From: Bugulina stolonifera
Taxonomy: Eukaryota; Bryozoa; Gymnolaemata; Cheilostomatida; Bugulidae
DNA: 64,000 nucleotides
Assembly: GCA_935421135.1 (NCBI GenBank)
Contig: OW285195.1
Location: 10,756,391-10,820,390, forward strand
Direction: 5' to 3'
The notes under the pieces are model-generated. The model was not told the origin of the DNA, did not search any database, and worked only from the letters and a program-made list of their open reading frames with translations. A program made the translations under genes and the position numbers. Of the stretch, positions 13,665 through 51,000 are shown piece by piece (positions within the stretch are counted from its first letter, which is position 1; each line of letters starts with the position of its first letter).

Positions 13665-13691
13665 TGTAAGTTGTATTTATCTGCTCTTCTA

Positions 13692-14986
13692 GCAGTTTTT
13701 GCTGATAGGTATGGTGTTCCTTGAACTACCAACCCCCTCACTCTGAGTGAGTTAATACCAGTAGTTCCAACAGGCAAGTGAGGGTTGCCAGGGAACACCC
13801 AATACGGTTTTCTGAAGCCGATATACAACTCAAGGTTGTACCAAAGCCCAGTGTACCTAGGGATTAAAGGTATTAACCTGTCCCTACCGCTAAGTATAGC
13901 AGGGATAACTTCTGATTCACCGAAGTTGTCTGCTCTTGAAGCAGTCCTACCGCTCAGTATAGTAGGAACTCTGTCCAAGGTTGTCTGTTCTTGAAGCAGT
14001 TTTTGCTGATAGGTATGGTGTTCCTTGAACTACCAACCCCCTCACTCTGAGTGAGTTAATACCAGTAGTTCCAACAGGCAAGTGAGGGTTGCCAGGGAAC
14101 ACCCAATACGGTTTTCTGAAGCCGATATACAACTCAAGGTTGTACCAAAGCCCAGTGTACCTAGGGATTAAAGGTATTAACCTGTCCCTACCGCTAAGTA
14201 TAGCAGAGATAACTTCTAATTCATCAAAGTTGTCTGCTCTTGAAGCAGTCCTACCGCTCAGTATAGTAGGAACTCTGTCCAAGGTTGTCTGCTCTTGAAG
14301 CAGTTTTTGCTGATAGGTATGGTGTTCCTTGAACTACCAACCCCCTCACTCTGAGTGAGTTTAATACCAGTAGTTCCAACAGGCAAGTGAGGGTTGCCAG
14401 GGAACACCCAATACGGTTTTCTGTAGCTGATATACAACTCAAGGTTGTACCAAAGCCCAGTGTACCTAGGGATTAAAGGTATTAACCTGTCCCTACCGCT
14501 AAGTATAGCAGGGATAACTTCTGATTCACCAAAGTTGTCTGCTCTTGAAGCAGTCCTACCGCTCAGTATAGTAGGAACTCTGTCCAAGGTTGTCTGTTCT
14601 TGAAGCAGTTTTTGTTGATAGGTATGGTGTTCCTTGAACTACCAACCCCCTCACTCTGAGTGAGTTAATACCAGTAGTTCCAACAGGCAAGTGAGGGTTG
14701 CCAGGGAACACCCAATACGGTTTTCTGAAGCCGATATACAACTCAAGGTTGTACCAAAGCCCAGTGTACCTAGGGATTAAAGGTATTAACCTGTCCCTAC
14801 CGCTAAGTATAGCAGGGATAACTTCTGATTCACCAAAGTTGTCTGCTCTTGAAGCAGTCCTACCGCTCAGTATAGTAGGAACTCTGTCCAAAGTTGTCTG
14901 CTCTTGAAGCAGTCCTACCGCTCAGTATAGTAGGAACTCTGTCCAAAGTTGTCTGCTCTTGAAGCAGTCCCACCGGAGTCGCCAAC
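13692..14986 (-). repeat. Four 304-bp tandem leader repeats plus 54-bp partial units
   Basis: Units start at about 13701, 14005, 14309 and 14614 (spacing 304, 304, 305) and two shorter partial units follow. Each contains small inverted repeats such as ctcactctgagtgag and cctaccgctcagtatagtagg. Open frames inside the units are by-products of their length and are not annotated. They occupy the leader between primer binding site and gag. Confidence 0.9.
14967..14984 (-). promoter_or_regulatory. Primer binding site of gag-only retrotransposon
   Basis: On the minus strand TGGCGACTCCGGTGGGAC lies two bases inside the 5' LTR. It begins TGG, the complement of a tRNA CCA end. The donor tRNA was not identified. 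Confidence 0.75.
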
Positions 14987-26074: not shown

Positions 26075-26728
26075 ATGAATAACATGGATCCTAATGTAGT
26101 GAAAACCCCCAGACCTCCACCAAGTGAGTAGAAAGTTAATAAAATATTAAAATGTAAACCATGCAGTCTACTTTGTTGTTAGAGTAGACAACTCCTAATT
26201 CCATGTACAAACTAACTAATATTCAATACTAAACTGTAGAGTGTAGCACATACGTCAACATGTACATGTACATGTACATGTAGTGCTGGTTTACTGAGTT
26301 ATAGAGACTTATATGGTGATTAGAATACTTTACCGACTTCCATAGAGTTTTTGTATCTGTACAAAACTGTCACTGTAATACAGTGTACACATATTATATA
26401 ATTATATACCAGTATAATAGTATTAACTATAGTGTATAACTGTGTTATATTAACAGTTATGTATGTTAGTATAAATATTGCTGTAACATGTTATCTCTGT
26501 AGGGTACTGCAAAGTGTGGTTCAGACACGCTGGTGTGGAGCTACCTGATGAGTGGATGGATGAAGATACAAGGGAATACACACTGGATGAACTGAAGAGA
26601 GAGACTGAAGGTCATAAGGTCACTCACATGGTAATAAAGTCCAGTATCCCACCTAACATACATCTGATAGCTCCAGAGTTGACACACCTTAGGCTGACTA
26701 GAATAACGTACAACTCTGGTCTGTCATT
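26075..26728 (+). other. N-terminal exons of the Roco-caspase gene
   Basis: Exon 1 encodes MNNMDPNVVKTPRPPP; exon 2 continues RYCKVWFRHAGVELPDEWMD, an acidic stretch, then LIAPELTHLRLTRITYN, which looks like an N-cap leading into the LRRs. No death-fold, signal peptide or membrane segment is seen, so a cytosolic protein is likely. Confidence 0.7.
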
Positions 26729-29700
26729 GTAAGTAAAGTACATCATATATAATATAATATACATGTACATAATAGTTGTAATACCACATCTGTGTTACCT
26801 GACAGGTCTAAGCCTAATACACCTAGTATATTATACTAATGAAAGTTCATACAAATGTATCTCAAGTGAACTTCCATGATATCAAAAGGCAGTAGTTGTG
26901 TGATAATTTTGCATAATTTTACACCAGACTCTCCACCCTCCATGTAGATGTACGTGTGTATTCTTTCTAACACAGTCTATCACAGTAACAGAGTATCACT
27001 TACTTCCACTAGTATAGATTATTATATAGCATCTCATGAGTGAGTGATGAATAACACATTGACATGAATCACAGGCTATTTATAGTACGTCTGCTGTGCA
27101 TAATTTGTATTCTACTAATTCCACTATATCCATGTTATTGTGTATAATATTGTAGTATGTCTAAGCTGAATAAACTGGAGGTACTGAGGATGTCTGGTAA
27201 TAACTTTGGATCTGAAGGTATACCAGATATATTCACTGACATGATGTCATTGAGAGAGTTGGATATTAGTTGGTGTGAGCTAACAACTCTACCAGTGAGG
27301 TAAGTATATATCATAATATACACTACTTATCATATAATAGTACAATATGTACACTTACAATACACACTGTATACTAGTAATAGTTTCCTACTAAATCTTG
27401 TTATTAGCCTTAGTTCCTACTAGTATTCTGTCTAGTGAGTGTTGAGTGACACATTGACATGAATCACAGGCTATTTATAGTACGTCTGCAGTACATAATT
27501 TATATTCTAGTAATTCCAATATATCCATGTTATTGTGTATAATATTGTAGCATGTCTAAGCTGAATAAACTGGAGGTACTGAGGATGTCTTGGAATAACT
27601 TTGGATCTGAAGATATACCAGATATATTCACTGACATGGTGTCATTGAGAGAGTTGGATATTAGTGAGTGTAGGCTAACAACTCTACCAGTGAGGTAAGT
27701 ATATATCATAATATACACTATTTATCATATAATAGTACAATATGTACACTTACAATACACACTGTATACTAGTAATGGTTTCCTACTAAATCTTATTATT
27801 AGCCTTAGTTCCTGCTAGTATTCTGTCTAGTGAGTGTTGAGTGACACATTGACATGAATCACAGGCTATTTATAGTACGTCTGCAGTACATAATTTATAT
27901 TCTAGTAATTCCAATATATCCATGTTATTGTGTATAATATTGTAGTATGTCTAAGCTGAATAAACTGGAGGTGCTGAGGATGTCTGGTAATAACTTTGGA
28001 TCTGAAGATATACCAGATATATTCACTGACATGATGTCATTGAGAGAGTTGGATATTAGTAGGTGTAGGCTAACAACTCTACCAGTGAGGTAAGTATATA
28101 TCATAGTATACATTACTTATCATATAATAGTACAATGTGTACACTTACAATACACAATGTATACTAGTAATGGTTTCCTACTAAATCTTGTTATTAGCCT
28201 TAGTTCCTACTAATATTCTGTCTAGTGAGTGTTGAGTAACAGATAGACATGAATCACAGGCTATTTATAGTACGTCTGCTGTACATAATTTATATTCTAC
28301 TAATTCCACTATATCCATGTTATTGTGTATAATATTGTAGCATGTCTAAGCTGAATAAACTGGAGGTACTGAGGATGTATGGTAATAACTTTGGATCTGA
28401 AGGTATACCAGATATAGTCACTGACATGGTGTCATTGAGAGAGTTGAATATTAGTGGGTGTAGGCTAACAACTCTACCAGTGAGGTAAGTATATATCATA
28501 ATATACACTACTTATCATATAATAGTACAATATGTACACTTACAATACACACTGTATACTAGTAATGGTTCCCTACTAAATCTTGTTATTAGCCTTAGTT
28601 CCTACTAGTATTCTGTCTAGTGAGTGTTGAGTAACATGAATCACAGGCTGTTTATAGTACGTCTGCTGTACATAATTTATATTCTACTAATTCCACTATA
28701 TCCATGTTATTGTGTATAATATTGTAGTATGTCTAAGCTGAATAAACTGGAGGTACTGAGGATGTCTTATAATTACTTTGGATCTGAAGGTATACCAGAT
28801 ATATTCACTGACATGGTGTCATTGAGAGAGTTGGATATTAGTATGTGTAGGCTAACAACTCTACCAGTGAGGTAAGTATATATCATAACATACACTACTT
28901 ATCATATAATAGTACTATATGTACACTTACAATACACACTGTACACTAGTAATGGTTTCCTACTAAATCTTGTTATTAGCCTTAGTTCCTACTGGTATTC
29001 TGTCTAGTGAGTGTTGAGTAACAGATTGACATGAATCACAGGCTATTTATAGTACGTCTGCAGTACATAATTTATATTCTACTAATTCCACTATATCCAT
29101 GTTATTGTGTATAATATTGTAGTATGTCTAAGCTGAATAAACTGGAGGTACTGAGGATGTCTAGTAATAACTTTGGATCTGAAGGTATACCAGATATATT
29201 CACTGACATGGTATCATTGAGAGAGTTGGATATTAGTGAGTGTAGGCTAACAACTCTACCAGTGAGGTAAGTATATATCATAATATACACTACTTATCAT
29301 ATAATAGTACACTATGTACACTTACAATACACGCTGTATACTAGTAATGGTTTCCTACTAAATCTTGTTATTAGCCTTAGTTCCTACTAGTATTCTGTCT
29401 AGTGAGTGTTGAGTAACATGAATCACAGGCTATTTATAGTACGTCTGCTGTACATAATTTATATTCTACTAATTCCACTATATCCATGTTATTGTGTATA
29501 ATATTGTAGTATGTCTAAGCTGAATAAACTGGAGGTACTGAGGATGTCTGTTAATAACTTTGGATCTGAAGGTATACCAGATATAGTCACTGACATGGTG
29601 TCATTGAGAGAGTTGAATATTAGTAGGTGTAAGCTAACAACTCTACCAGTGAGGTAAGTATATATCATAATATACACTACTTATCATATAATAGTACAAT

Positions 29701-32700
29701 ATGTACACTTACAATACACACTGTATACTAGTAATAGTTTCCTACTAAATCCTGTTATTAGCCTTAGTTCCTACTAGTATTCTGTCTAGTGAGTGTTGAG
29801 TAACATGAATCACAGGCTATTTATAGTACGTCTGCTGTACATAATTTATATTCTACTAATTCCACTATATCCATGTTATTGTGTATAATATTGTAGTATG
29901 TCTAAGCTGAATAAACTGGAGGTACTGTGGATGTCTGGTAATAACTTTGGATCTGAAGGTATACCAGATATATTCACTGACATGGTGTCATTGAGAGAGT
30001 TGGATATTAGTAGGTGTAGGCTAACAACTCTACCAGGGAGGTAAGTATATATCATAATATGCACTACTTATCATATAATAGTACAATATGTACACTTACA
30101 ATACACACTGTATACTAGTAATGGTTTCCTACTAAATCTTGTTATTAGCCTTAGTTCCTACTAGTATTCTGTTTAGTGAGTGTTGAGTAACATGAATCAC
30201 AGGCTATTTATAGTACGTCTGCTGTACATAATTTATATTCTACTAATTCCACTATATCCATGTTATTGTGTATAATATTGTAGTATGTCTAAGCTGAATA
30301 AACTGGAGGTACTGAGGATGTATTGGAATGACTTTGAATCTGAAGGTATACCAGATATATTCACTGACATGGTGTCATTGAGAGTGTTGGATATTAATCA
30401 CTGTGGGCTAACAACTCTACCAGTGAGGTAAGTATATATCATAATATACACTACTTATCATATAATAGTACAATATGTACACTTACAATACACACTGTAT
30501 ACTAGTAATGGTTTCCTACTAAATCTTATTATTAGCCTTAGTTCCTACTAGTATTCTGTCTAGTGAGTGATGACTAATAGATTGACTGAATCACAGGCTA
30601 TTTATAGTACGTCTGCTGTACATAATTTATATTCTACTAATTCCACTATATCCATGTTATTGTGTATAATATTGTAGTATGTCTAAGCTGAATAAACTGG
30701 AGGTACTTAGGATGTATTGGAATAACTTTGAATCTGAAGGTATACCAGATATATTCACTGACATGGTGTCATTGAGAGAGTTGGATATTAGTATCTGTAG
30801 GCTAACAACTCTACCAGTGAGGTAAGTATATATCATGATATACACTACTTATCATATAATGGTACAATATGTACACTTACAACACACACTGTATACTAGT
30901 AATGGTTTCCTACTAAATCTTATTATTAGCCTTAGTTCCTACTGGTATTCTGTCTAATGAGTGTTGAGTAACACATTGACATGAATCACAGGCTATTTAT
31001 AGTACGTCTGCTGTACATAATTTATATTCTACTAATTCCACTATATCCATGTTATTGTGTATAATATTGTAGTATGTCTAAGCTGAATAAACTGGAGGTA
31101 CTGAGCATGTATAGTAATAACTTTGGATCTGAAGGTATACCAGATATAGTCACTGACATGGTGTCATTGAGAGAGTTGGATATTAGTGGGTGTAAGCTAA
31201 CAACTCTACCAGTGAGGTAAGTATATATCATAATGTACACTACTTATCATATAATAGTACAATGTGTACACTTACAATACACATTGTATACTAGTAATGG
31301 TTTCCTGCTAAATCTTGTTATTAGCCTCAGTTCCTACTAATATTCTGTCTAGTGAGTGTTGAGTAACATGAATCACAGGCTATTTATAGTGCGTCTGCAG
31401 TACATAATTTATATTCTACTAATTCCACTATATCCATGTTATTGTGTATAATATTGTAGTATGTCTAAGCTGAATAAACTGGAGGTACTGAGGATGTCTG
31501 TTAATAACTTTGGATCTGAAGGTATACCAGATATAGTCACTGACATGGTGTCATTGAGAGAGTTGGATATTAGTAAGTGTTGGCTAACAACTCTCCCAGT
31601 GAGGTAAGTATATATCATAATATACACTACTTATCATAATATAATAGTACAATATGTACACTTACAATACACACTGTATACTAGTAATGGTTTCCTACTA
31701 AATCTTGTTATTAGCCTCAGTTCCTACTAGTATTCTGTCTAGTGAGTGTTGAGTAACACATTGACATGAATCACAGGCTATTTATAGTGCGTCTGCAGTA
31801 CATAATTTATATTCTACTAATTCCACTATATCCATGTTATTGTGTATAATATTGTAGTATGTCTAAGCTCAATAAACTGGAGGTACTGAGGATGTCTTGG
31901 AATGACTTTGAATCTGAAGGTATACCAGATATATTCACTGACATGGTGTCATTGAGAGAGTTGGATATTAGTAGGTGTAAGCTAACAACTCTCCCAGTGA
32001 GGTAAGTATATATCATAATATACACTACTTATCATATAATAGTACAATATGTACACTTACAACACACACTGTATACTAGTAATGGTTTCCTACTAAATCT
32101 TATTATTAGCCTTAGTTCCTACTGGTATTCTGTCTAATGAGTGTTGAGTAACACATTGACATGAATCACAGGCTATTTATAGTACGTCTGCTGTACATAA
32201 TTTATATTCTACTAATTCCACTATATCCATGTTATTGTGTATAATATTGTAGTATGTCTAAGCTGAATAAACTGGAGATACTGAGGATGTCTGATAATTA
32301 CTTTGGATCTGAAGGTATACCAGATATAGTCACTGACATGGTGTCATTGAGAGAGTTGGATATTAGTGGGTGTAGACTAACAACTCTACCAGTGAGGTAA
32401 GTATATATCATGATATACACTACTTATCATATAATGGTACAATATGTACACTTACAACACACACTGTATACTAGTAATGGTTTCCTACTAAATCTTATTA
32501 TTAGCCTTAGTTCCTACTGGTATTCTGTCTAATGAGTGTTGAGTAACACATTGACATGAATCACAGGCTATTTATAGTACGTCTGCTGTACATAATTTAT
32601 ATTCTACTAATTCCACTATATCCATGTTATTGTGTATAATATTGTAGTATGTCTAAGCTGAATAAACTGGAGGTACTGAGCATGTATAGTAATAACTTTG

Positions 32701-35700
32701 GATCTGAAGGTATACCAGATATAGTCACTGACATGGTGTCATTGAGAGAGTTGGATATTAGTGGGTGTAAGCTAACAACTCTACCAGTGAGGTAAGTATA
32801 TATCATAATGTACACTACTTATCATATAATAGTACAATGTGTACACTTACAATACACATTGTATACTAGTAATGGTTTCCTGCTAAATCTTGTTATTAGC
32901 CTCAGTTCCTACTAATATTCTGTCTAGTGAGTGTTGAGTAACATGAATCACAGGCTATTTATAGTGCGTCTGCAGTACATAATTTATATTCTACTAATTC
33001 CACTATATCCATGTTATTGTGTATAATATTGTAGTATGTCTAAGCTGAATAAACTGGAGGTACTGAGGATGTCTGTTAATAACTTTGGATCTGAAGGTAT
33101 ACCAGATATAGTCACTGACATGGTGTCATTGAGAGAGTTGGATATTAGTAAGTGTTGGCTAACAACTCTCCCAGTGAGGTAAGTATATATCATAATATAC
33201 ACTACTTATCATAATATAATAGTACAATATGTACACTTACAATACACACTGTATACTAGTAATGGTTTCCTACTAAATCTTGTTATTAGCCTCAGTTCCT
33301 ACTAGTATTCTGTCTAGTGAGTGTTGAGTAACACATTGACATGAATCACAGGCTATTTATAGTGCGTCTGCAGTACATAATTTATATTCTACTAATTCCA
33401 CTATATCCATGTTATTGTGTATAATATTGTAGTATGTCTAAGCTCAATAAACTGGAGGTACTGAGGATGTCTTGGAATGACTTTGAATCTGAAGGTATAC
33501 CAGATATATTCACTGACATGGTGTCATTGAGAGAGTTGGATATTAGTAGGTGTAAGCTAACAACTCTCCCAGTGAGGTAAGTATATATCATAATATACAC
33601 TACTTATCATATAATAGTACAATATGTACACTTACAACACACACTGTATACTAGTAATGGTTTCCTACTAAATCTTATTATTAGCCTTAGTTCCTACTAG
33701 TATTCTGTCTAATGAGTGTTGAGTAACACATTGATATGAATCACAGGCTATTTATAGTACGTCTGCTGTACATAATTTATATTCTACTAATTCCACTATA
33801 TCCATGTTATTGTGTATAATATTGTAGTATGTCTAAGCTGAATAAACTGGAGATACTGAGGATGTCTGATAATAACTTTGGAACTGAAGGTATACCAGAT
33901 ATATTCACTGACATGGTGTCATTGAGAGAGTTGTATATTAGTTACTGTAAGCTAACAACTCTACCAGTGAGGTAAGTATATATCATAGTATACACTACTT
34001 ATCATATAATAGTACAATATGTACACTTACAATACACACTGTATACTAGTAATGGTTTCCTACTTAATCTTATTATTAGCCTTAGTTCCTACTAATATTG
34101 TTTGTGTCTACTCGGTGTTTATTGTTATATTGTCAGATTACTGTTGTGTTGGGTGTAGTATGAGGACTCTGTAGCACCTGATTTTGCGGCTGTTCGAAAA
34201 AGACAGTTCGAAACAGGAAGTTTTAAACCTGGACAGTTCGAAACCCCAAACCTCAACCCCCACTATTTAACTAATTTTTATTTTTAATATTAATGATTAC
34301 CTCTGCGTTGTGTTCTTCTAAGCGTATTCTACACAGTTTCGAACTCTTTGGTTTCGAACTGTCCTGTTTCGAGCTTTTTATCGAAATGTCCCTTTACCGT
34401 AGCACCTATAGACACTGGATGTATATATACATGTATATGATGTATATAGTTTTATTAGTAATGTGACACTAGTCCAGGCTTTTAGTTTCTTATTAATATC
34501 AACAATAGTATCTTTATGGACTGATCCCCAGTTGAATCTATCTCAGACCAGTGGTAGGCAGGGCTAGTTGGGTATATATAGAGCTCTGTTCCAGTCTATT
34601 TTTCACAGGCAATAAAGCAACATCTCTCTCTACTTACAACTACTTGTAGCTTCTAGTGCCGGCTAGAAACCTGTTAGTTGGGTTCCTAGTAGGAACTAAT
34701 ACTACTGTAGTAGTGTTTAGGGTACAGTTAGGGAATCACAGTAACAGCTAGGGTCTGACATCCTCACACTTGTAATAATATAACTGTGCATGCTACATGA
34801 TATTAGCTTGTTGTTACAATAAAGAGGTTGGTCCTTGGCTATCATCTGCTAGTATCTGTTCGCTGTCCACTTGACCAGATAATTACACTCTGTACTCTCA
34901 TCTTGGTCCATTCTAGTGTGTGTTTTAGTTAGTGGGCCCTACGTTACCCAGCCCGATCCTTACAGTATGCTACTATTGGTTTCCTACTAAATCAAGTTTC
35001 TAGCCTTAGTTTCTACTGATGTTCTATTTAGTCACTGTTCAACGTCAGATTGACCTGAATCACAGGCTATTTATTGTTTATTGTTTGGATGTGTTGTTAT
35101 ACATGTAATATAATGATATTTTAGTTAGATGTTAGTAATTTATGGATGTTTATAATTTATATTCTATAATGAGTTGCTAAATAAATTAATATAAGCAGTT
35201 ATGACTCTGTGTCCTGAAATGTTTAATCTTGTTTCCACCATTATACGCCCCACTTGTGTAGACATAGTTATAAATATGAATTATGTTTCTATATAGGTGA
35301 CATGTACAATGTAATTACAATGTAAGCTATTGTACATGTTTTAGCATGAAGACCCTGCAGCACCTACAGACGCTGGATATATCAAATAACTCTTTCACCG
35401 CTTTACCTGCTGCCGTGTGCGAGTTGAGGAATCTACTGAAGCTAAACCTTAGTAACAATTGCTCTCTCGTATCTCTGGATGCTAAGATACTACAGCTGAC
35501 CCAGCTTCGGCTTTTGGATGTCGATGACTGCCCCGCTCTTACATCACCACCTACTGAAGTGTGTCAACGTGGACTTTCCGCTATTACCCAGTACTACACG
35601 GATCTGGCTAAAGGTGAAGGTGAAAACTTGCCATTGGTTACCATTGCTATAATAGGGAACACCATGGCTGGAAAAACTAGTCTAATCAGGACATTGCAAA

Positions 35701-38700
35701 GTGATGAAAGGACAAGAGTTCTGACAAATCGTGATGTTGATGCTGTCGTGGATGAAGCAACCAAAGTGTTCAATGTGGAGGAGGTGAAAGTGAATGACAC
35801 TGTGTTGAGACTTATTGATATGGGCGGGCAGGAGGTGTACCACATTACGTATCAACTTACATTGAAACAGAACTGTATACCCATCATAGTGGTGAACATA
35901 CAACAATACAAGGAGCTTTCAGCTACCTCCAATCACAGAGAAGCGGTGAGAAGGCTGGCCTTCGATTGGATGGCTCACCTCTACTTGGCTAACCCTGATC
36001 TTGGCCCTCCAAAGCTGGTCTTTACACACAAAGATAAATTCCCGTTGGCCCAGGTCACTGAATTGAGAAAAAATTTTCTTACAACTGCTGATGCATTGCG
36101 AAAAGAAATTATCGAGGAGGAGAAACATCTAGACAAGCACTTGACACGGATAAAGCATTTCTGCGACACTGAGACACCTCTCTTTGCTCCTGAAGATGTT
36201 TATGAGGTCGGTGATGAAAAAGATGACTACACCGTGTATGATTCGATCAGATCAAACATTTTTCAAGCAAGCCAAAAGTTTGTCAAAACTCTGCCTAAGC
36301 TCTGGGAAGACGTGAGTGATAATATATTGTCTTTGCAAACGGCGTACAGTACTGTAGCTGAAATCCTCGCTGTGTTACATCAATCAAATGTAAACCTCAC
36401 GAAAGATGAACTGAAAACGATTCTGAACTACATGCATGACTGTGGTAAGGTATTGCATTATGAGAAAACAGCAGCTCTTCAGTCTTACATCTTTCACAAG
36501 ATAGAAGTGGTTACCAAACTGCTTACAGTTTTGTACCATCATGGGGAGAAAATCTGGCAAGAGCGACTTGTTGAATTCCTACCTTGTTTTGTGGCTGGTT
36601 ATTCTATGGAGAAAGGACATTGTGAAGCCTTTGTTTCTACTTTCGTGAACACTGGAGTCATGGATGTGCGGCTTTTGTTCTACTTGATAAAGTCAGAAAC
36701 TGTCTTTCAAGGCAACACTGACTTCCAACTAGCTATCACCTTATTGCGAACCTTCCGTCTGCTCCATGGTCCGCTTCCTCTACAGTCAAAGAAATGTTTC
36801 ATAGTGCCTTATTTCTGTTCTGACTATCAGCAGAACTGGTTAGACAATGATGAAGATGTCGTCTTGCGAATGGAGATTCTCTTTCAAGGATTGCGTCTTC
36901 CACAATACGTGTATCATCAGATGGTAGTTGAACTTTTGAGAATGTTTCCTGTCAGGGAAAACTCTGTTGAAGTGAAGAAAAATGGCGCCGAGGTGTTTCA
37001 CAATGGTTCACTGATTCATCTAATTCATGACTCTCAATCCAGGAACGTGACTCTCCAGGTGTCTTCAGCAGTAGAGGAAATCAGTCAGTCGTGGGCAAAC
37101 ATTGTCAACATTACTAGAAGGATCTCCCGGCAAGTAAAGGAGGTGTGGCCAGCTAGTAGATTGGTTCATCAATTCTTCTGTCCCCACTGTCTGCTGAAAG
37201 GTGCCTCTCATCCAAGGAGAGAAGTTCCTCCCACCTGGTGTGATGGTTACTCCTCAGCTGATGCTCCATCTCACAAAAACTGGGAGGGTATGCTGACTGA
37301 TCGCTGTGGTAAAGAGAAGGTACCAAGTCCTCTGCTATATCCATGTAAGTAGTAGATATTACTTGTTCCGTATTGATCACATGACTACAAGACGATTACA
37401 TAGACGATTACATAGACGATTACATAATTTTATATTGTGAACAACCCTCTGATGATGATGATGTATGGATATACATCGAAATATAAGGAGTCAACAAAAA
37501 ATACGAGTCTCGTCTTATTTTTCATCATTTAGATACTTGCTCGCACTAGCATTTTCTTCTTTGTAATAAAATGGCACTCCTTATGTATACTGTCGAGTGT
37601 CAACCAGCCGGCTCCTGGCAGAATCCGGCTGTTACTCGTCTGTTCCTCATTTGCTGTTCGTCTGTTACAATATACTGAGTCATGTTCAGGTTCATCCCTG
37701 AGTGAAGTAGAGACAGAGAAACTTAAATCTGTGGTGGAGGAGCTGAAGGAAAAGAGAAGATCTCTACAGCCTCCAACAAGTCAGTCCATCAGATATACAT
37801 GTTACCTACTTATTACATCATTACTGACTCATGTACATGCGGCTACAAGTGTAACTGTACATATACTCTGCAATAGGATGGTGGATGGAGAGATATGAAG
37901 TAACGCTCTAGTCCCTCCAACTCTGTCCATCATCAGGGTCCCTACGATCTATGAGAATTTCTCTGCCGTTCAACTCTTGCGAATCAGGTCCAGGGATAGT
38001 ACAGTGAGCGTTTTAATGTAGCATCTCTTCTAGGATGCACATCTGGTTGCTCCACAGCTCTGCTGATAGAAGAAAGTTTTTTGGTTACAAGGTTACATAA
38101 CTCTCAATCAGATCTGGACCCTGTCTGTGGGTGCTTGAGGGACACTTTAGAGTGTAGCTTCATATCTTCTCTTCCATTTTCTTGCTCTGTAAATATCCAC
38201 ATCTGGTCACGTGAACATTTGTATTACCATTGAAGACATAATACTGTGTATCCATGTGTGATATTGTAATAAATCAGTTATTTTTCATGTCTAGGCTCAT
38301 CCCTGAGTGAAGTAGAGACAGAGAAACTTAAATCTGTGGTGGAGGAGCCGAAGGAAGAGAGAGAATCTCTACAGCCTCCAACAAGTCAGTCTATCAGATA
38401 TATATGTTATGTAACTATGACATCATCACTGACTCATGTACATGTAGCTACAAGTGTATTCCTCATATAATGTCCACATGTGTTTATGATGTGGAATAGA
38501 TCAGACATTTGTGAATGATTTTGTAATAAACAAGTTTGCTTTACAAGTTTGATGCAGGTGAACTGCTTGTAAAGGATTATAGGAAACGAGGGCACCATCT
38601 ATATGTATGTGTTAAATGCTCGTAACATATTTGAGCATTGTCTATTTGTAAAGGTGGTGAGCAGAGACGACCTGCTTCAACGCTTCCTCTCCAGCGACCC

Positions 38701-41700
38701 AAGCTACAACCCGCTGTAGTGGATGACCTTAGTGACCTTTCTGATGATGACGACTACATTATACCTACTAAGGATCCTAGACAGCAAATGGTTTCTCTTA
38801 CACAACGTGTTGAACCTACCACCTTGCCTAAGATCCAAAGACTGTTCCACAATACAGATAAAGTAAGTAGAGAGTCAACCTGTACGACAGATTTGTAATC
38901 AATATCCATATTGTGGGGTATTTCATTACTACAATATATATCTGTATATTATATCATAGTCATATATTGAATGAGTGTCATCGTCTACCCACTATTATAA
39001 GATTGTATGTAACAGGTGTTCAAGATGACAAAGATTAGAGGAAGAGCTCTGGTAATCAACAATCAAACATTTCTACACTCTCCAGAAAGAGTCGGTTCTG
39101 AAGCTGATGTTCAGAACTTGAAGGATATGCTGACAGCATTCAAGTTTAAAGTCAGCATCGCGACCAATCTCTCGGCTGAGGTACTAACTCTATTCTCATG
39201 GGACATTTCCTAATCTCTGTAGGTGAAGGGGAGTAATTCCTACAAATCAGATGACATATTTGGTAGCGGTGGTGCAGGCGAACTGGCTATAAAGTTGAGA
39301 TATTTATGACTGGTCGTTTTCAGATACCACTGCCAATCATTATGGTGTTCCATAGTCCAGATGTTAGCAAATTTATTCCAGGCGACGGTTATACTGGATT
39401 GCATTGTATGACATCTAAGTGAAGGACATTGGTTGTGTTTTACTTGTATACAACTGAATGATTTGCCGTGCTCTACCTCTTTACAGGATATGCTGCTTGT
39501 TATCAAGAATGAGGTCAAGGATAAACGCCACGCTGATTACGGAGCCTTCTGGTTATTTCTCTGCTCTCATGGTACTGATTCTAATCACATATATGGCTCA
39601 GATGATGTACTGGTTAACCTAAAGGATGTGTATGATCTACTCACACCTCTCAACTTTCCAGGAATGGCTGAGAAACCCAAACTTGTAGTCATTCAGGCCT
39701 GTGCTGGAGGTAAGTGTGTTTATGTTTTTATATTTGCAGTCTGATGAGTTAGGTGGTGATTTCACTCTCGTCAGAGAGGCCTAATAATCTCTTTAAGCTT
39801 CAGTAATTTGTGTCAAAATTATTTTCAAGTACTTTCCGTAAGGAGTTGTAACAGTTGGATTTCGATGTGGAATATATTTTATATTTGTGACGCAACAGTG
39901 GGCTCAAACCTAGCTAATCAGCTGCCAACACCGGTCTCTACTTTCACTGATTATTTGGATTTGGAGAATCTGACCTCCATACCAAAATTTGTTTTTTATG
40001 AAATTGAAAGCAATGATATATTACCAATCATCGATATCTTAGATACAAAGAAAGCCACTGGTTATGATAAAATTCCAGCAAGAACTCTGAAAGAAAATAA
40101 ATTAACCATAACTCCAATTCTAGTGTTTTTAACAAACTTAATTATAAAAAAAATCAATTTTCTCTGACTGTCTAAAAATTGCGCGTGTTACTCCAATATT
40201 CAAAAAGGGTGATAGAACAGATTGTAATAATTACAGACCAATCTCAACAATTTATTTACAGAAAGCCAACGTGGTTTTAGAAAAGGAAGGAATACCACTG
40301 GAGCAATTAACATCCTTATGGAACAGCTTTATGAAAATTTCAACTCGAGCGCAATAACCCAAGGAATATTTTTAGACTTTTCAAAAGCTTTCGATACTAT
40401 TAATCACCAAATTTTAATAGGCAAATTACCCTTTTACGGATTTTCCCTTGGTGCTACAAAAACTATAGAAAGCTATCTTAAAAATAGAAAACAATTTGTG
40501 AATTTTAACAGCTGTGCATCAAACATGCGGGAAATCACTATCGGCGTCCCACAAGGCTCAATTATTGGGCCATTACTTTTTCTTATCTATATCAATGACC
40601 TTTTAAAAGCAGCCCCCTGTCTCAATTCTATACTTTATGCTGATTATACAAATATTTTCTCCACCAACCCGCAAATTTTAAACCAAGAAATTGTCAATAT
40701 TGAAAACTGGTGCATAGCCAACAAGCTGGTTTTAAATTACTCCAAAACTTTCCAAGTACTTTTCAAAGCTCCAAACAAACAATTTAAACAGTCACAGTAC
40801 ACTGTGAAAATGAATAATACCCCTCTGGAATTTAAAAATGAAACAAAATTTCTTGGTATCACCCTCGATGCTAACATTACTTTCAAACCACATTATATTG
40901 GCTTTACTTTATCGAAGACTGAAGCTTATTTTATTAATGATGAAAGCTGTACGATCATTCTTTAACCAAAAAACAATGGTGGAACTTTATTATGCCTTTT
41001 TTTATCCTCATCTTTTATATGGAATCGAATTGTGGGGGCATGCGAATGAGACCGCGCTTAAACACATCGCGGTCCTCCAGAAGGCAGCTGTTAGAGTAAT
41101 TTTAAACATTAAACCGAGAGAACATGTCACCTCTCATTTTAAAACCCTAAAAATCACGCCAATTAAAATGTTTTTTGAATTCACCACTTTAAAACTACTA
41201 CTTAAAACCTTTCCTCCAGAATTTTTATTTTCACTGATGACAAAAAACCATCATAACACACGGCAACAAAGCCTTAAAACAAAGAAAGCCAACAACAAAC
41301 GAGGTAAGAGGTCCTTGTTGAACACAGGAATTGTCCTGTACAACAAGCACCTAATGGGGGTGGAGACTGGCACCGCTGCCTGTCGCGTGGATGGTCTAGC
41401 TGCCCTCATGTGGGTGGTCGCTTAGGGCCGGTGGAGACTGCATGTCCCTGCCGTCCTTGGATGGGGTGGTTCTGCGGCGGTGAAGAGTTTTTTAGTTGCG
41501 CAGCCTTTTCTCTAGCTTCGGACTATCTGGTTTGTCCCTTTGCTTTTTTATATGTCTTTTTAATTAATACCTTTTATATATTTCAAAAATAGCAATAAAC
41601 GCACTGAAAAAAAAAAGTTTATCACCAACATAAATCACCCATGGAACTACATTAGTAAGACTCATAATGTGAGTCTCAACCTACTAACTGGAACTGATTC

Positions 41701-44506
41701 ACTGCTATATATACTAAATACTATACCATACATTTATCCTGTTTTTATACTGATGTGTAGCTCACCATTGTGAGAGTAGACAACTTCTCCAATGAATGTA
41801 ATCTAATACTACTACTTGTATTCATTTCCACATACAGTTTACATACCATATCAGGACATCATGGTCTTTCACTCTCATTGCATCATAGACTTGGTTCTAT
41901 TATTGACTAATAATGTTTGTTGTGTGAGGTACACCCCCCACCCTTTGGGGGTATTATGACTCATTTTAACTTGTCAGTATATCTTCCACATTACATCCAG
42001 TGTATCTTGTAATGTATAAGTATGATGTTTATTTATATTCCACCAGAGAGAGTTGATGGAGGTGATAGAGGTATCCATATGGCTGTTCCTGAGGATGACC
42101 CAGCCTACAGACCCACTGAGGAATTACCTCAAGTTACCAGACCTCCACCTACAGCAGTTGGTCAACGTCTGGTTTCTAAAGAATTGACTAGACTTAATTA
42201 TGACAATATGTTAGTCATAAAGTCAAGTTTTGAGTGTAAGTCATGTTGTATAAATTGTTCAAACTAGCATATGGTTCGCACTAATACTAGCTGTGGTTAG
42301 CAGTGTGTACTAAGCCAATCCCATGAAGTATTAGTAGGTCGCACTAATCGTTTGCATATGGCCAGTTAGCATGACTGCGTACTGAGAGTGTGCACTGGCT
42401 GAGCTCGGCAAATGAGTGCGAGCTGGGTCATCCCATAGCTCTAGCTGAGGTTCAACCACACTGAGTTCGAACCATGGAAACCCTGTGATTAATTATACTA
42501 CTGTTGGATTATGTTGAAATTTCAGGTTCAGCTGAATTCACTGTTGGCATTCATCCATCATTAACTTTTGTAAGGAGCAATCCAAATCCTACACTCCATT
42601 TCCGCAACAGAAACATTTTAGGTCTTTTGATTTTGTGTGATGAATGAAATGGACATTCCATAGTTTGTATGTTAACACATACCTTGTCTATTGTACTCAC
42701 TTCTTATCAAACTTATTTGTCTGTTTGATTGACTTACTTACCTGTCTATCTACTTATGAAAACTAATATATACATATTTCAGCGTTTCTGTCCATAAGAG
42801 ACCCTACTTATGGTTGTCTAATGATCAGATGTCTGGTTAGGACAATGTATAAACACGCCTGTCACAGAGACATGTATGAGATATACAAGATTGTAAGTAC
42901 CTTTCTATTTAATCATTACATCTACCCATGATTTGTTTAATATTATTCCCTGACACACATTCAATATGATGGAGAATATGACCATTCCTTTACATTAACT
43001 GAGAAATATGGATTTAAATGCGTGTATATAATTAGTAGTAAGCTATATGTGTCTTCTGTATTTATACACAACCATGGCTGAGGGGCTGCTATGAAAGTTG
43101 ACCAGAGTTTGAATTCCATACAGAGTCAGGTAGTGCCAAGTAAAACATCCTACTATACTTGCTACATCATATACCTTATTATCAGAATAGTGAAGACAAC
43201 TCCATAGTATCTAGTACCAATTTCTTCCAAGCAATGTGTATCACTTGGAATTGATATTGGGAAGTAAGCTGTGAGTTTTATAGCGTTATACCTGTATATC
43301 AACTGTTTGACCTGACCAGTTTCTACACTCAGGTACAGCACAGAGTAAGAAAATTCTGTCTCAAGAAGAATATGGAGAGTGGACAGTTGGTAGTAGCTCA
43401 AGATACTCTGACTCACATGAGGAAGCTTTATCTATTTCCTGAATACAACGGATCTAGAAGGAGGAATATTCAAGGTACATTAAATTATGCTCAATGTTTT
43501 ATTTTGAAAAACAAGATATATGGGCGTCATGTAACTATGTAGTGTAGTAACCATAGCAACGGCTACTCTTACTGTATCCTGGGTGTTGATGGCTACTTAT
43601 TCATTCATATATGAGACCACACACCACTCTACTCTCCAGACTGGGATACTGACTATTAGTAATCAATCTCATGTCATTCTGTCTGAGAGTTCTAGTGATA
43701 AAACCATTCTAGTCTTTTACTCCACAGGCTGGTATACTCTCATATACATACACACTCCTGGTTCACTTCTTACTTGACTATAAACAGACACCCTGCTGGC
43801 CTTTTGTATTTATAAACTCTACTTTCAGTAATCTAAGCATGCTACCAATATTACTCACATAATTTGGTAGCAGCAGTAGAAGTAGTAATATTTATTATTG
43901 TCATTTTACAGCAAGTATAATTTCTATATTTTGATAATTGGATTGCTGTATCTTCTTTTACGTTGAGTTACTGAAATAGTAGTAGACAGTCGGTTACTAT
44001 TAAGATTAGTATGGTCACAGTCAATCATTAATACAGGATCCACTAATAGTTTGGGAAACATACATTGTACAGTTCAACCTGAATATATTATACCATGTAG
44101 TTTGTGGACTAACAAGAATCTTGGGAGTTGTTTTCCCTTAAAATAGAAATTGGGCATGGAAACACCACTCTGATAGAAATTGGGGATATAAGTGTATAAA
44201 TGTACAATGTACATCCCAATGGGTCTTGTTTAGTGTAGGAATTGAATTTGGTGCTACATTATGTTGTCGGTCGGTTTAACAGTTGGGTGATGTGTTATAA
44301 AATATCTTTTTGTAACAACTCTGTGGCTTGGAGCTGAGATCTCGGTTTGTCTGGCCAGGTGGTTCAATACGTATTCTACATTGTAATAATATTAATATTG
44401 TATTGTGTAATGTAGTAATGTGATTATTGTATCTTGTGATGGAATTCTTTCAGACACTGACCATGGAGAGACAACTACTGATATAGTTCCTAGGGTAACT
44501 GTGTAA
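26075..44506 (+). CDS. LRR-Roc-COR-caspase fusion protein (predicted 2045 aa)
   Basis: Thirty exons joined in phase: 26075-26123, 26503-26728, 18 LRR exons (27156-33971), 35345-37344, 37690-37779, 38295-38384, 38654-38862, 39016-39180, 39487-39709, 42047-42235, 42783-42892, 43333-43474 and 44454-44506 (stop TAA). The sum is 6138 nt. Domains: N-terminal region 1-91, LRRs 92 to about 1025, Roc GTPase about 1050-1235, COR about 1290-1600, linker 1620-1750, caspase 1753-2035, short tail. The family logic is recognition by LRR, a GTP/GDP switch and dimerisation by Roc-COR (as in Roco proteins such as LRRK and MASL), and proteolysis by a caspase. Proximity activation of the caspase by Roc-COR dimers is an inference. 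Every splice junction has GT-AG and fitting phase. A LINE sits in the intron between the two caspase subunits without touching exons. Confidence 0.85.
27156..33971 (+). repeat. Array of 18 tandem 144-nt LRR exons
   Basis: Exon starts: 27156, 27551, 27946, 28341, 28728, 29123, 29510, 29897, 30284, 30678, 31073, 31460, 31858, 32253, 32648, 33035, 33433, 33828; each is exactly 144 nt and encodes 48 residues, two LRRs (MSKLNKLEVLRMSxNNFGS, then IPDIFTDMVSLRELDISxCx and LTTLPVS). All have the same phase at both ends, so any number can be skipped or added in frame. Unit length is 387-398 bp and the introns are nearly identical. Residue 14 of the units reads G,W,G,G,Y,S,V,G,W,W,S,V,W,D,S,V,W,D and residue 39 reads W,E,R,G,M,E,R,R,H,I,G,K,R,G,G,K,R,Y. 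Confidence 0.95.
30822..33971 (+). repeat. Recent tandem duplication of four LRR exons (offset 1575 bp)
   Basis: Exons 11-14 (31073-32396) and 15-18 (32648-33971) with their introns repeat at an exact offset of 1575 bp. Exons 11-13 and 15-17 encode identical proteins; 14 and 18 differ at a few sites. The intron after exon 14 matches the one after exon 10 (atcatgatatac, aatggtacaat), marking the crossover point. Confidence 0.9.
34183..34396. mobile_element. MITE of the TTCGAAC family, copy 3
   Basis: Starts gattttgcggctgttcgaaa and ends gaaatgtccctttacc, with inverted cagttcgaaacagga / cctgtttcgaactg ends. Flanked by gtagcacct on both sides (34172-34180 and 34400-34408), a perfect target duplication of 8-9 bp. 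Confidence 0.75.
34461..34968. mobile_element. Possible solo LTR
   Basis: About 508 bp running from TGTGACACTAG to GATCCTTACA, with a TATA-like gtatatatagagctc at 34573 and two AATAAA signals (34611 and 34819). The layout resembles an LTR, but flanking bases agtaa and gtatg do not match, and no partner is in the window. Confidence 0.35.
35345..37344 (+). other. Roc-COR exon of the Roco-caspase gene
   Basis: One 2000-nt exon. It opens with two to three further LRRs (LQTLDISNNSFTALP, LLKLNLSNN, LRLLDVDDC). The Roc GTPase follows: P-loop GNTMAGKT at 1060-1067, switch II DMGGQE at 1114-1119 and G4 motif THKD at 1183-1186, all matching the Roco consensus. Lys1066 and Thr1067 of the P-loop are intact, so GTP binding is expected. 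The COR domain occupies the rest (PKLWEDVSDNILSL through VPYFCSDYQQNW) and ends in a Cys-rich segment (FFCPHCLLK plus three more Cys) like the zinc-binding end of other invertebrate Roco proteins. No kinase domain follows. Confidence 0.9.
37690..38384 (+). repeat. Duplicated 90-nt linker exon
   Basis: Exons 37690-37779 and 38295-38384 encode almost the same 30 residues (SSLSEVETEKLKSVVEE, then SLQPPT), with flanking intron ends also similar. A Leu/Glu/Lys heptad-like pattern suggests a short helix. Both exons have the same phase and can be included or skipped in frame. Confidence 0.85.
39016..39709 (+). other. Caspase large-subunit (p20-like) exons
   Basis: Exons 39016-39180 and 39487-39709. 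The strand GRALVINNQTF starts the fold; ERVGSEADVQNL supplies the S1-pocket Arg (Arg1777) in the usual R-x-G-x-x-x-D setting. The catalytic His is in FLCSHGTDSNHIYGSDD (His1835) and the catalytic Cys in VVIQACAGE (Cys1879), matching the caspase QACxG box. All critical residues are present, so an active protease is expected. The active-site Cys codon lies eight bases before the intron that holds the LINE. Confidence 0.92.
39795..41620 (+). mobile_element. LINE remnant in the caspase intron
   Basis: Reverse-transcriptase pieces in three frames: TKKATGYDKIPARTLKE near 40050, FLDFSKAFDTINHQIL at 40370, GVPQGSIIGPLLFLIYINDL at 40545 and LHSILYADYTNIF-type motif at 40630. The canonical FADD/YADD site reads YADY, so the second catalytic Asp is lost, and frames break near 40167 and 40900. 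It ends with AATAAA and an A-run (41609-41618), as in poly(A)-tailed LINEs. Length 1.8 kb, 5' truncated. Confidence 0.85.
42047..44506 (+). other. Caspase linker, small-subunit (p10-like) and tail exons
   Basis: Exon 42047-42235 completes QACAGERVDGG and encodes an acidic linker with Asp residues (VPEDDPAYRPTEEL) that could be a processing site. Exon 42783-42892 has FLSIRDPTYGCLMI with Arg1950 in the place of the substrate-binding Arg of the p10 subunit. Exon 43333-43474 has VVAQDTLTHMRKLYLFPEY, the terminal strand pattern (Thr-Leu-x-x-x-Leu-Tyr-Phe-Pro) of caspases. Exon 44454-44506 gives a 17-residue tail and the stop, with AATAAA overlapping it at 44506-44511. Confidence 0.88.
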
Positions 44507-48087: not shown

Positions 48088-51000
48088 TCAACTGTCACCA
48101 TCAACCTGTTGTGACACCTGTTGACTAGTGTCAGCTTGTTCAGTAGAAGTATATGTAGCTGTATGTATATATTCATTATATGAAGGCAGGTGATTGATGC
48201 TGGATGACTCAGTTTGTGAAGTAGTCGGTACTTCAGACTACAGAACACCCATAATATATTGTAGCAGTGACCACAGCCTAAGATATCCACTAGATGACGC
48301 CATATGAATTAAGTATAAGCTATCCAGCAAATGGTAGCAGTGGAACTCAGTAATTAGGAGTTGTCACTCCTTCATTTTGGTAAATTAAATTGAGGTAGAT
48401 CAAATTGAAAGTGGCCATGATAGAATGATGAGTTTGAACGCCACAACTAAAGACTATATAATATTGACAGAAGGTGATAACTCCAAATTAGTGAAGCATA
48501 TCCATCAGTATGTATAATAGTGGATGAAGAGTTATATATAATATATTTGAGTACTGGAGTACCATTACATACAGTGTATATAATATAGAGACTATGAATT
48601 ACACTAACATACATAATACACTTGGACACATGTATATAATTACATACCATGTTACACACATACCTGTGGATTAGATGTCACTTGATCATAAGAGGGAGGT
48701 AACTCTTCTATCAACTCAGCAGTAGAAGTGGGTGGGGCTGTAGGTGGTACAGCAACTCTGTCATCAGGAGCAACTGATAATCTATAGAAAGGATAGCAAG
48801 AGATCTTACAACAGATGACCTGATTCCATGCAGAAACACTGGACAAAGTCATAAAACCCCGTCCACTTATTCAGAACAAGGGCAGATCCCTGCTAAATAT
48901 TAGTCCACCATGTATTACCTTGTCTGACGTTGCCACCTAGCACACTCTAGAAGACTGCGTACTGTCATGTTTACTAGTAAGTTACTGACATAGATGAATG
49001 TAGATGAGTTACCTTGAGGTGTGTAGTCTAGCTGAAGCAGGTGAGCCGATACCACTAGCAGGTGCTCTTGCATGGTGTGTGACATGGTGATCAGGTGAGC
49101 CGATACTACTAGCAGGTGCTCTTGCATGGTGTGTGACATGGTGATCAGGTGAGCCGATACCACTAGCAGGTGCTCTTGCATGGTGTGTCACATGGTGATC
49201 AGGTGAGCTGGGAATAGCTGTGGCCTGTCTCTGTATAGCTTGCTGCTGTATGGTCCAAGGATCACTTTGGGCAGCATAGTCTTCCATCCTGTTAGAGACG
49301 TGTGTTCGGAATCTAAACTCATCATAGTCTTGACCTATGTGAAACACTGTAACAATATTGAATTAATAATTATTATGGAATTATAATGATATTATATATA
49401 TTACATAGCATATGCTATAGCACATGTATTACCACGGTATCAACATTACTGTCACTGAATATATCATTAACACGGCAAAGACACTAGAACAGAAACAGTG
49501 CTAGAATAAATGGTCAACATATTGTAATGGTTTCTGTGTTTTGGTGCGGTCGTCCTTGGACGACTATCGACCCAGAAATGAAGTGCCTATGAGTGGTAAT
49601 AGGACTTCGCATTACATGAAAGATCGAGCGGTCTCAGTAGCCCAAATACTACCAAAGACGACCCATCTGATCTCAAGTCCGACCTTCAGACTATACAGTG
49701 AAAGAGAGTAATTCAACCTAGTAGGCGGTTCGCAAAGCGAATGACCTAGTAAAAGGAAGAGAAAGTCCCTGTATCAAGTATAGATGTGTCTTTATTGAAA
49801 GCCAAGCGTAGACTGAGACAATGAACAGTAAAACAGTGCCCTTTATATAGTATAAGGACTTCCGGCCGACATGACGTCGGGAAAAGACGACGTGTGGTCG
49901 TCCGGAAGTTGCGCAACAAGATGGCCGCCGGAAGCCCGACGGCCGACCCAAAATAGGTCGGGTTCTACAAAAGTTGCTTATAATGGTCCAATTCATGTAC
50001 AAAATGAATATCAATGGATTCTGAGAGGTCGGGCCTCTGTACATGGGTATAAAAGGCATTAAAAGACTTAGAAACATTCATGTGACTATGTATAACAACA
50101 TATAGTAAGATACATGAATAAGGAATGAGCATAAACACATGGAGACATGTATATATAGATGGTAATTAAGTACTTTGGACATGCAATGCAGTTAAGGGTA
50201 AGTATACGAGCACTAATTGTAAGAATGTTAGTGTCAGGTGAGTAGCGCTGTAACAACTACTAGGCACTTAGGGTGCGGTGGAGCTTCGTCCGGGAGTTGG
50301 AGTCGTATACAAATGTCCTGTACCATCACATAGCCCCCCGATCCTTGGCACTATCTCTCCGAGTATGTCTAAGGATCTGCTCCGTGAGCCGTTGGTGGAG
50401 GGATATTTCGTCCTGTACGGCTTCCGTCTGCTGGACTATAGTAAGCCGGTCTCTAACATGTGAGTGAAGAAGTCTCTGCTGGAGTATATGCAATTGGTGC
50501 CTGAGGCGTCCGAGACGATTGTTCAGAGTAGCACACAATCGTTCTCTCTCCTTCTGGAATTCTGCTGTAGGGGTGCGGGATTCAAGAGTCTTCTTTGTAT
50601 TTTTAGCATCTGGAGGGCTGGTCGACAACGGGACGGCCTTGTCTGATCCGGGTCTAGCCTTAGGCGGCCGGGGCCGACGTTTGGGTATGTCGTAAGTATC
50701 AGTCCCTCGGTGATCCAAGGCTGGAGGGTCCATACGAGTCTGTGGTCGCTTTGGACTGCCTAGTCGCTCCCAGGGCGACTTTCTTTTACTTGTTTTCTTT
50801 GGGGCAGGAGGAGGTGTCAGTCGCACCACTGCTGCTCTGGCTTCAGCTTCTGGAGGAGCTGGTATAGTGAAAGGTTTCGGTCCTACGTCTGCTGGGATGC
50901 ATGAGGGGTAAGCGACCCTCTTGTCGAGCTTCATCGCCTTGAGGAAAAGCTGGAACATGTGGGAATCCACTTCATACTGGATGGCTCCGTGGCCTGTCTG

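Follow-up and report, generated by a model that had tools for sequence, protein, structure and literature searches.

The best-known animal systems link a sensor to its caspase by way of separate adaptor chains or domains. The sensor and the protease of the apoptosome and the inflammasome are carried on separate chains that are joined via CARD, DED or PYD, and initiator caspases are activated by proximity. Among Roco proteins, the published classes end after the COR domain, in a kinase, or in the death domain of DAPK (PMC6337361; papers are cited by PMC number, for the parts of their text that were available). Here we describe a predicted gene of Bugulina stolonifera in which leucine-rich repeats (LRRs) and a Roc-COR module are followed by a caspase. 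It occupies positions 26075-44506 of a stretch of 64,000 nucleotides, referred to as the window (C9:10756391-10820390), and is called the window gene. Group 1 LRR-RocCOR Rocos (human MFHAS1, Chlorobium tepidum and Methanosarcina) resemble it in having LRRs directly before Roc-COR and the G1, G3 and G4 motifs. These proteins stop after COR (PMC6337361), whereas a caspase follows COR in the window gene.

The window gene is likely to be one member of a large Roco-caspase gene family, with at least 39 loci in this genome. The best explanation, which we consider probable, is that the products of the family are receptors whose single predicted chain combines hypervariable LRRs with a GTPase switch for assembly and a caspase as effector. 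No description of a Roc-COR-caspase protein was found among the literature search results listed, and the novelty of this architecture is judged from the literature; it may have been listed before among the up to forty animal ROCO domain combinations (figure in PMC11378527) or in supplements.

Gene structure and domain composition

The original prediction, made from the sequence of the window, had described 30 exons that join LRRs, Roc, COR and a caspase. A reconstruction of each exon in turn confirmed this structure, apart from slight shifts of some boundaries (e.g., exon 2 at 26503-26728 and caspase exons at 39016-39180 and 39487-39709). The exons comprise 6138 nt, corresponding to 2045 amino acids and a single terminal stop. 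All 29 introns are GT-AG, and the joined frame contains no internal stop; the frame of the 2000-nt exon at 35345-37344 is open across 683 codons. The motifs GNTMAGKT, DMGGQE, THKD, SHG and QACAG were all located in the gene as claimed, with THKD (36024-36035) falling just outside the Pfam Roc match (35643-35921). The last exon (44454-44506) had no clear counterpart in the fetched paralog loci and is the least certain of the model. The exon encoding the N-terminal module is present as a single copy within the window.

A Pfam scan of residues 1-187, 956-1623 and 1624-2045 of the window protein (residues 188-955 being further LRR exon copies, which were left out) recognized LRR, Roc, COR-A (weakly) and Peptidase_C14 in the predicted order. 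The Roc match (PF08477) had an E value of 2.4e-8 and the Peptidase_C14 match an E value of 7.5e-37. In the scanned residues, CARD, DED, PYD and NACHT gave no match at E ≤1, and no kinase or death domain was found. NCBIfam returned bacterial LRR effector matches that were confined to the LRR part and far under the cut-offs, and its small GTP-binding match was likewise below cut-off. PF08477 matched all 13 members of a paralog alignment, and the G1, G3 and G4 motifs of the Roc domain are present. When a profile of the full exon was compared with PDB chains, LRRK1, LRRK2 and a "Rab family protein", which we take to be the Chlorobium Roco, were matched across LRR and Roc among the best 60 of 167 matches.

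The best match of the caspase part among PDB chains was CED-3 (E value, 1.1e-25). Both p20 and p10 were recognized, and the catalytic His (SHG) and Cys (QACAG) are present. The residues at the aligned places of the P1-Asp pocket are the Arg in ERVGSEAD, the Gln of QACAG and the Arg in SIRDP; both pocket Arg, one in p20 and one in p10, align with those of CED-3 and caspase-1, in agreement with the original prediction.

The C-terminal end of the COR exon carries a Cys/His-rich tail (CPHCLLKG..HP..PPTWC), in which C612, H614, C615 and H622 are invariant in 13 members. This tail is possibly metal-binding.

A Roc-COR-caspase family in the genome

The genome searched comprised 235 Mb in 27 contigs. 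The caspase part gave at least 145 exon matches, from which 70 caspase p20 loci were listed, that of the window included. The Pfam Roc family gave at least 112 matches, 32 of them in open frames of at least 200 amino acids. For 29 of these 32 large-frame matches, a listed caspase exon followed downstream on the same strand, at a distance of 2.9 to 11.1 kb and thus inside the 15-kb limit. A listed caspase exon was found upstream on the same strand in 0/32, on the opposite strand in 0/32, and downstream of short-frame Roc matches in 0/80; therefore, the pairing of Roc and caspase is not a matter of chance. Two of the three unpaired large-frame matches have frames of 204 and 220 amino acids and may be ordinary small GTPases, and the third is located at C11:3170658.

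Roc-COR was present upstream of the caspase, on the same strand, at 39 of 42 loci examined among the 70 listed. This number is composed of 18/20, 4/4 and 2/3 fetched loci, 14 unfetched loci recognized by Pfam Roc, and the window. The 18 were found by tblastn around 20 of the best caspase paralogs (L019-L038), where Roc-COR identity ranged from about 36 to 90%; the Roc part of L026 lies farther upstream than the 10 kb read. The Roc-COR exon of the nearest copy, L019, is 90% identical and begins 14.4 kb past the right end of the window, and none of the LRR exons of this copy is inside the window. The N-terminal module was recognized in five fetched loci (L020, L021, L023, L036 and L038) with 39-76% identity, and the family structure occurs on several contigs.

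One region of the same contig, C9:8962487-9016212, contains one Roc-COR followed by apparently three caspase units (exon 1 at 8967081, 8971353 and 8987388), all with EASSG in p20.

Splice signals and co-divergence of the two halves

In 14 of the 18 paralogs, the COR exon runs directly into a splice donor. The donor is CCAT/GTAAGT in nine of them (L019-L027) and GTACGT in L038; in the remaining four (L029-L032), it is found a few bases farther on. The exon end was not seen in the other four paralogs (L028, L034, L036 and L037), whose examined COR-exon match ended elsewhere. In the donor-bearing paralogs, the COR-exon frame closes 6 to 120 nt into the intron. At the other side of the junction, the scan listed a phase-0 acceptor, in frame with caspase exon 1, in 19 of its 21 rows, which represent 20 distinct places. 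The acceptor CAG/GTG is also visible in the sequence context of L020 and L024, where the scan did not list it; the acceptor listed for L036 differs from the visible one, and the L037 match begins within the exon.

Linker exons connect the two halves. The 90-nt phase 1-1 exon of the window gene was recognized in six fetched loci (L019, twice, and L020, L022, L026, L027 and L028), and the acidic exon (DLSDLSDD or ELSDLSDD) in five (L019, L020, L022, L024 and L025). The scan found no linker exons in distant copies, and tblastn detected linker parts in L021, L023 and L034. The motif DLSDLSDDDDY of the window gene is a possible self-cleavage or phosphorylation site. Across 13 loci, the Roc-COR distances were correlated with those of the two p20 exons (r = 0.893), and none of 10000 permutations gave a value as high.

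Selection and active-site variation

The ratio of nonsynonymous to synonymous substitution (dN/dS) was estimated by the Nei-Gojobori method between the window gene and six paralogs. The ratio was 0.18 to 0.30 for Roc-COR and 0.06 to 0.17 for the exon with the catalytic His and Cys, the lowest of the compared exons in all six comparisons. It was 0.28 to 0.72 for the linker exon, 0.21 to 0.73 for caspase exon 1 and 0.16 to 0.75 for the p10 exons; for short exons, with few changes each, such values are noisy. Judged from these ratios and from the correlated distances, the Roc-COR and caspase halves are both constrained and are diverging in step.

The catalytic motif of the loci L019-L038 (n = 20) is QACxG in 10, EACSG in five, ETCSG in one and EASSG in three; L037 shows QAC, with the remainder unaligned. 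Glu takes the place of the QACxG Gln (EACSG, EASSG or ETCSG) in L029-L036 and L038, wherever their p20 exon 2 could be read, and the P1 pocket of these subfamilies appears to be altered or lost.

Hypervariable codons and recent duplication in the LRR array

The 18 LRR exons are almost identical save for three hypervariable codons, 14, 39 and 41, which specify 6, 9 and 5 different residues, respectively. At these codons, the proportion of nonsynonymous differences (pN) was 0.52 and that of synonymous differences (pS) was 0.20, compared with 0.034 and 0.030 at the other codons and a divergence of 0.033 in the LRR introns; the size of this pN is inflated because the codons were picked after inspection of the variation. 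The overall pN of the LRR exons (0.067) also exceeds the intron divergence. According to the LxxLxLxxNxL pattern, codons 14 and 39 would specify the exposed residue immediately preceding the Asn/Cys on the predicted concave face, and codon 41 the one immediately following it. It had been proposed that the LRRs sense a ligand, and this proposal is kept as a prediction that the hypervariable codons strengthen.

Three LRR exons, at 31073, 31460 and 31858, are repeated with identical sequence at 32648, 33035 and 33433. The duplicated block is 1575 nt long, and its first 1050 nt, introns included, contain no mismatches; 115 mismatches follow, and the final 175 nt account for 100 of these. The mismatch-free part is a sign of recent LRR turnover or, less likely, of an assembly error. 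No further LRR exon copies were found elsewhere in the window.

Proposed mechanism

As judged from the window gene and those sister loci that were read, the order along the chain in the family is an N-terminal module, an LRR array, a Roc-COR switch, a linker and a CED-3-like caspase. We infer every step of the mechanism that goes beyond this gene anatomy. The LRRs, given their hypervariability, would recognize a microbial, damage or non-self ligand. Ligand binding would change the nucleotide state and the self-association of Roc-COR, as known Roco proteins suggest; in human MFHAS1, the nucleotide influences the oligomer state (PMC6337361). The caspase domains of adjacent chains would then meet and cut themselves, perhaps together with their acidic linker. 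By analogy with the proximity activation of initiator caspases, the fired caspase would start cell death or inflammatory processing.

These features suggest that the family is a large set of death receptors, each in one piece, for immunity or self-recognition. A further proposal, which is put forward tentatively and with clearly less confidence than the single-chain architecture, is that dozens of these genes form a diversifying repertoire of death receptors, each a single chain, in which LRR exons that duplicate and change at exposed positions provide specificity, Roc-COR stands in for NACHT as a GTP-driven assembly switch, and the caspase, needing no adaptors, fires in cis. An LRR sensor encoded by hypervariable exons, a GTPase switch and a caspase in one chain would demonstrate direct wiring without adaptors, and such a chain is a candidate for the molecule by which an animal couples recognition to cell death. 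The family could also serve as a simple system for testing the nucleotide control of Roc-COR assembly, which is debated for LRRK2 and DAPK1.

Evidence against and alternative explanations

Several observations weigh against the reading as single-chain Roc-COR-caspase receptors. Some of them concern the identity of COR: the COR-A match of the window protein (PF16095; E value, 3.7e-5) scored 24.1 bits, compared with a Pfam curated cut-off of 35.3, a COR-only profile found no convincing PDB chain (two matches, E values of 0.45 and 0.47), and a single-sequence structure model of the Roc-COR exon had a mean predicted local distance difference test score of 39, which is unusable for a fold search. 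COR-A was recognized at E ≤0.01 in 9 of the 13 members of the paralog alignment; with COR-only sequences, COR-A was matched in 12/13 and COR-B in 5/13 at E ≤0.1, every score being weak. Based on position, length and these repeated weak matches, the COR identity is accepted but not proven. Others concern the family: no Roc-COR was found in the stretches read for the caspase loci L033, L035 and L045 (only 3.5 kb for L045), and the Roc-COR copies of L025, L026, L028, L030, L037 and L042 are interrupted or partly seen. None of the 32 large-frame Roc matches lies within 15 kb of any of a further 33, more distant caspase places, one of which overlaps with a listed locus; therefore, the genome also has other kinds of caspase. 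EASSG, without the catalytic Cys, is found in L029, L033 and L035, which are three distinct places. To these are added the choice of the hypervariable codons after the fact and the presence of three AATAAA hexamers between COR and caspase in the window, two of which are aligned in the neighbor paralog L019. Finally, a simple switch by GTP-driven dimerization is at odds with a bacterial Roco reported to be monomeric with GTP (PMC11052575), and because of this report the switch may work in the reverse direction.

Among the alternatives, the one that survives best is a mixed locus, which we regard as possible but rather unlikely. Alternative polyadenylation or splicing would then yield a protease-free LRR-Roc-COR protein, as a decoy or regulator, in addition to the full fusion. 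The hexamers between the halves could possibly give rise to such a shorter additional transcript, and skipping of the modular linker exons (phase 1-1) or of LRR exons (phase 2-2) would preserve the frame. Alternative splicing of LRR exons is shown by brown algal ROCO genes (PMC11378527). However, the number of hexamers is only slightly above chance (3 in 1671 nt compared with about one expected, by a rough estimate), and the alignment of two of them in L019 could be explained by the general similarity of the copies.

It is considerably less probable that the caspase domain is a pseudo-caspase that serves mainly in assembly, without proteolysis. The EASSG motif of three of the 20 loci, the EACSG or ETCSG of six others and the departure of the window's QACAG from the common QACRG are in line with this possibility. 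The window gene itself retains the His, Cys, Gln and both specificity Arg, however, and the lowest dN/dS was that of its His/Cys exon. For the family as a whole, the specificity Arg is missing from the parts of p10 observed in L033 and L035; because of this loss and that of the catalytic Cys in EASSG, the family probably also includes non-protease members, together with some that have an altered pocket.

The original prediction had named two separate genes as its alternative. An LRR-Roc-COR gene and a neighboring caspase gene would always have traveled together by tandem duplication, which we consider very improbable. This explanation could draw on the hexamers, on a Met at the fourth residue of caspase exon 1 in most copies, and on the caspase units without adjacent Roc-COR at C9:8.971 and 8.987 Mb. 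It is unlikely because of the donors at the COR exon end (where no conserved stop is found), the phase-matched linker exons in close paralogs and the in-frame acceptor at which caspase exon 1 begins. Order and strand are also kept at 39 loci, with Roc-COR identities of about 36 to 90% where read, and the two halves co-diverge. Taken together, these results support a single fused gene.

A decaying or chimeric gene or an assembly artefact, to which a reverse transcriptase fragment in the intron 39710-42046 and several interrupted sister copies might point, is negligible in view of the intact 2045-residue frame, a dN/dS below 1 in both halves and a structure shared on several contigs; these candidates and the two-gene locus were considered and rejected on the splice, frame, dN/dS and multi-contig evidence.

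Features of the window gene and other elements in the window

The features of the window gene, as a single gene encoding LRRs, Roc-COR and a caspase, are listed in Table 1.

Table 1. Coordinates of the window gene and its parts, as positions in the window.
Feature	Position	Strand	Remarks
Exon 1, start codon ATG of the model, donor GT	26075..26123	+	Predicted start
Exon 2, N-terminal module (VWFRH...PELTHL) preceding the LRRs	26503..26728	+
18 tandem LRR exons	27156..33971	+	144 nt each (48 aa, two LRRs), phase 2-2, introns 243-254 nt
Recent segmental duplication within the LRR array (likely)	31073..33576	+
2000-nt exon: last LRRs, Roc GTPase, COR, Cys/His-rich tail	35345..37344	+	Donor CCAT/GTAAGT at end
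Roc domain	35643..35921	+	PF08477; GNTMAGKT 35655-35678, DMGGQE 35817-35834
COR region	36231..37265	+	COR-A best match ~36294-36518; weak Pfam scores
90-nt linker exon (SSLSEVETEKLKSVVEELKE..)	37690..37779	+	Phase 1-1
Duplicate of 90-nt linker exon	38295..38384	+	Phase 1-1
Linker exon with acidic motif	38654..38862	+	Phase 1 to 0; DLSDLSDDDDY at 38725-38757
Caspase p20 exon 1	39016..39180	+	Specificity Arg 39088-39090
Caspase p20 exon 2	39487..39709	+	Catalytic His 39568-39570, catalytic Cys 39700-39702 (QACAG)
Intersubunit linker and p10, three exons	42047..43474	+	42047-42235, 42783-42892, 43333-43474; specificity Arg 42797-42799
Last exon, stop TAA	44454..44506	+	AATAAA from 44506 (final base of stop codon)

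The caspase intron 39710-42046 contains the reverse transcriptase fragment (PF00078; E value, 5.5e-26) at 40231-41422 (+), which is probably a dead non-LTR (long terminal repeat) element; a second open frame overlapping it had no Pfam match. A candidate LTR element is located at 49523-54682 (-), with two 300-nt direct repeats that are 100% identical and 4860 nt apart from start to start. Long minus-strand frames with a weak aspartyl protease match lie between the repeats, and two frames were scanned and showed no reverse transcriptase domain. Tandemly repeated open frames encoding near-identical peptides (FKEHHTYQQKLLQEQ...) occupy 12831-14921 (-), and a 282-aa frame there had no Pfam match. 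A tRNA scan found none.

Comparison with known systems

CARD recruits caspases. The ROCO genes of Trichoplax, of which there are at least 17 putative ones, form an early-animal repertoire tied to cell-death signaling (PMC4104024). Trichoplax ROCOs bear CARD, death or TIR adaptor domains (PMC4104024), whereas the window gene has the protease in the chain. The scanned pieces of the window protein yielded neither CARD nor DED nor a death domain.

The peptidase domain IPR009003 is presumably trypsin-like, a fold other than that of the caspase. Brown algal ROCO group 3 carries this domain at the C-terminus, and the available text of the study contains no mention of caspase (PMC11378527). Like the window gene, brown algal ROCOs have phase-2 tandem LRR exons, and they show exon shuffling and diversifying selection; their LRR exons are 72 nt long with one LRR each (PMC11378527), compared with 144 nt and two LRRs in the window gene.

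DAPK1 also has Roc-COR in an animal cell-death protein. Unlike in the window gene, its kinase precedes Roc-COR, LRRs are absent, and a death domain stands at the end (PMC6337361). Sponge NLRs (Amphimedon and Dysidea) are expanded LRR immune receptors whose switch is NACHT, in contrast to Roc-COR in the window gene. In a figure legend on Dysidea, CASc and COR are among the domains shown with NLR categories, and the proteins meant are not readable from the legend (PMC12909245). Among prokaryotes, a Roc-COR profile gave 79 pattern matches, none of which was confirmed; the search relied on two short peptide patterns, by which distant Rocos would be missed.

The proposed analogy is the receptor-driven proximity activation of CED-3, caspase-9 and caspase-1 by the apoptosome or inflammasome, with CED-3 being the PDB chain nearest to the catalytic domain of the window gene. 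If the diversifying repertoire proposed above is real, it would represent a third sensor-to-caspase wiring beside the apoptosome and the inflammasome, possibly for self/non-self or symbiont discrimination.

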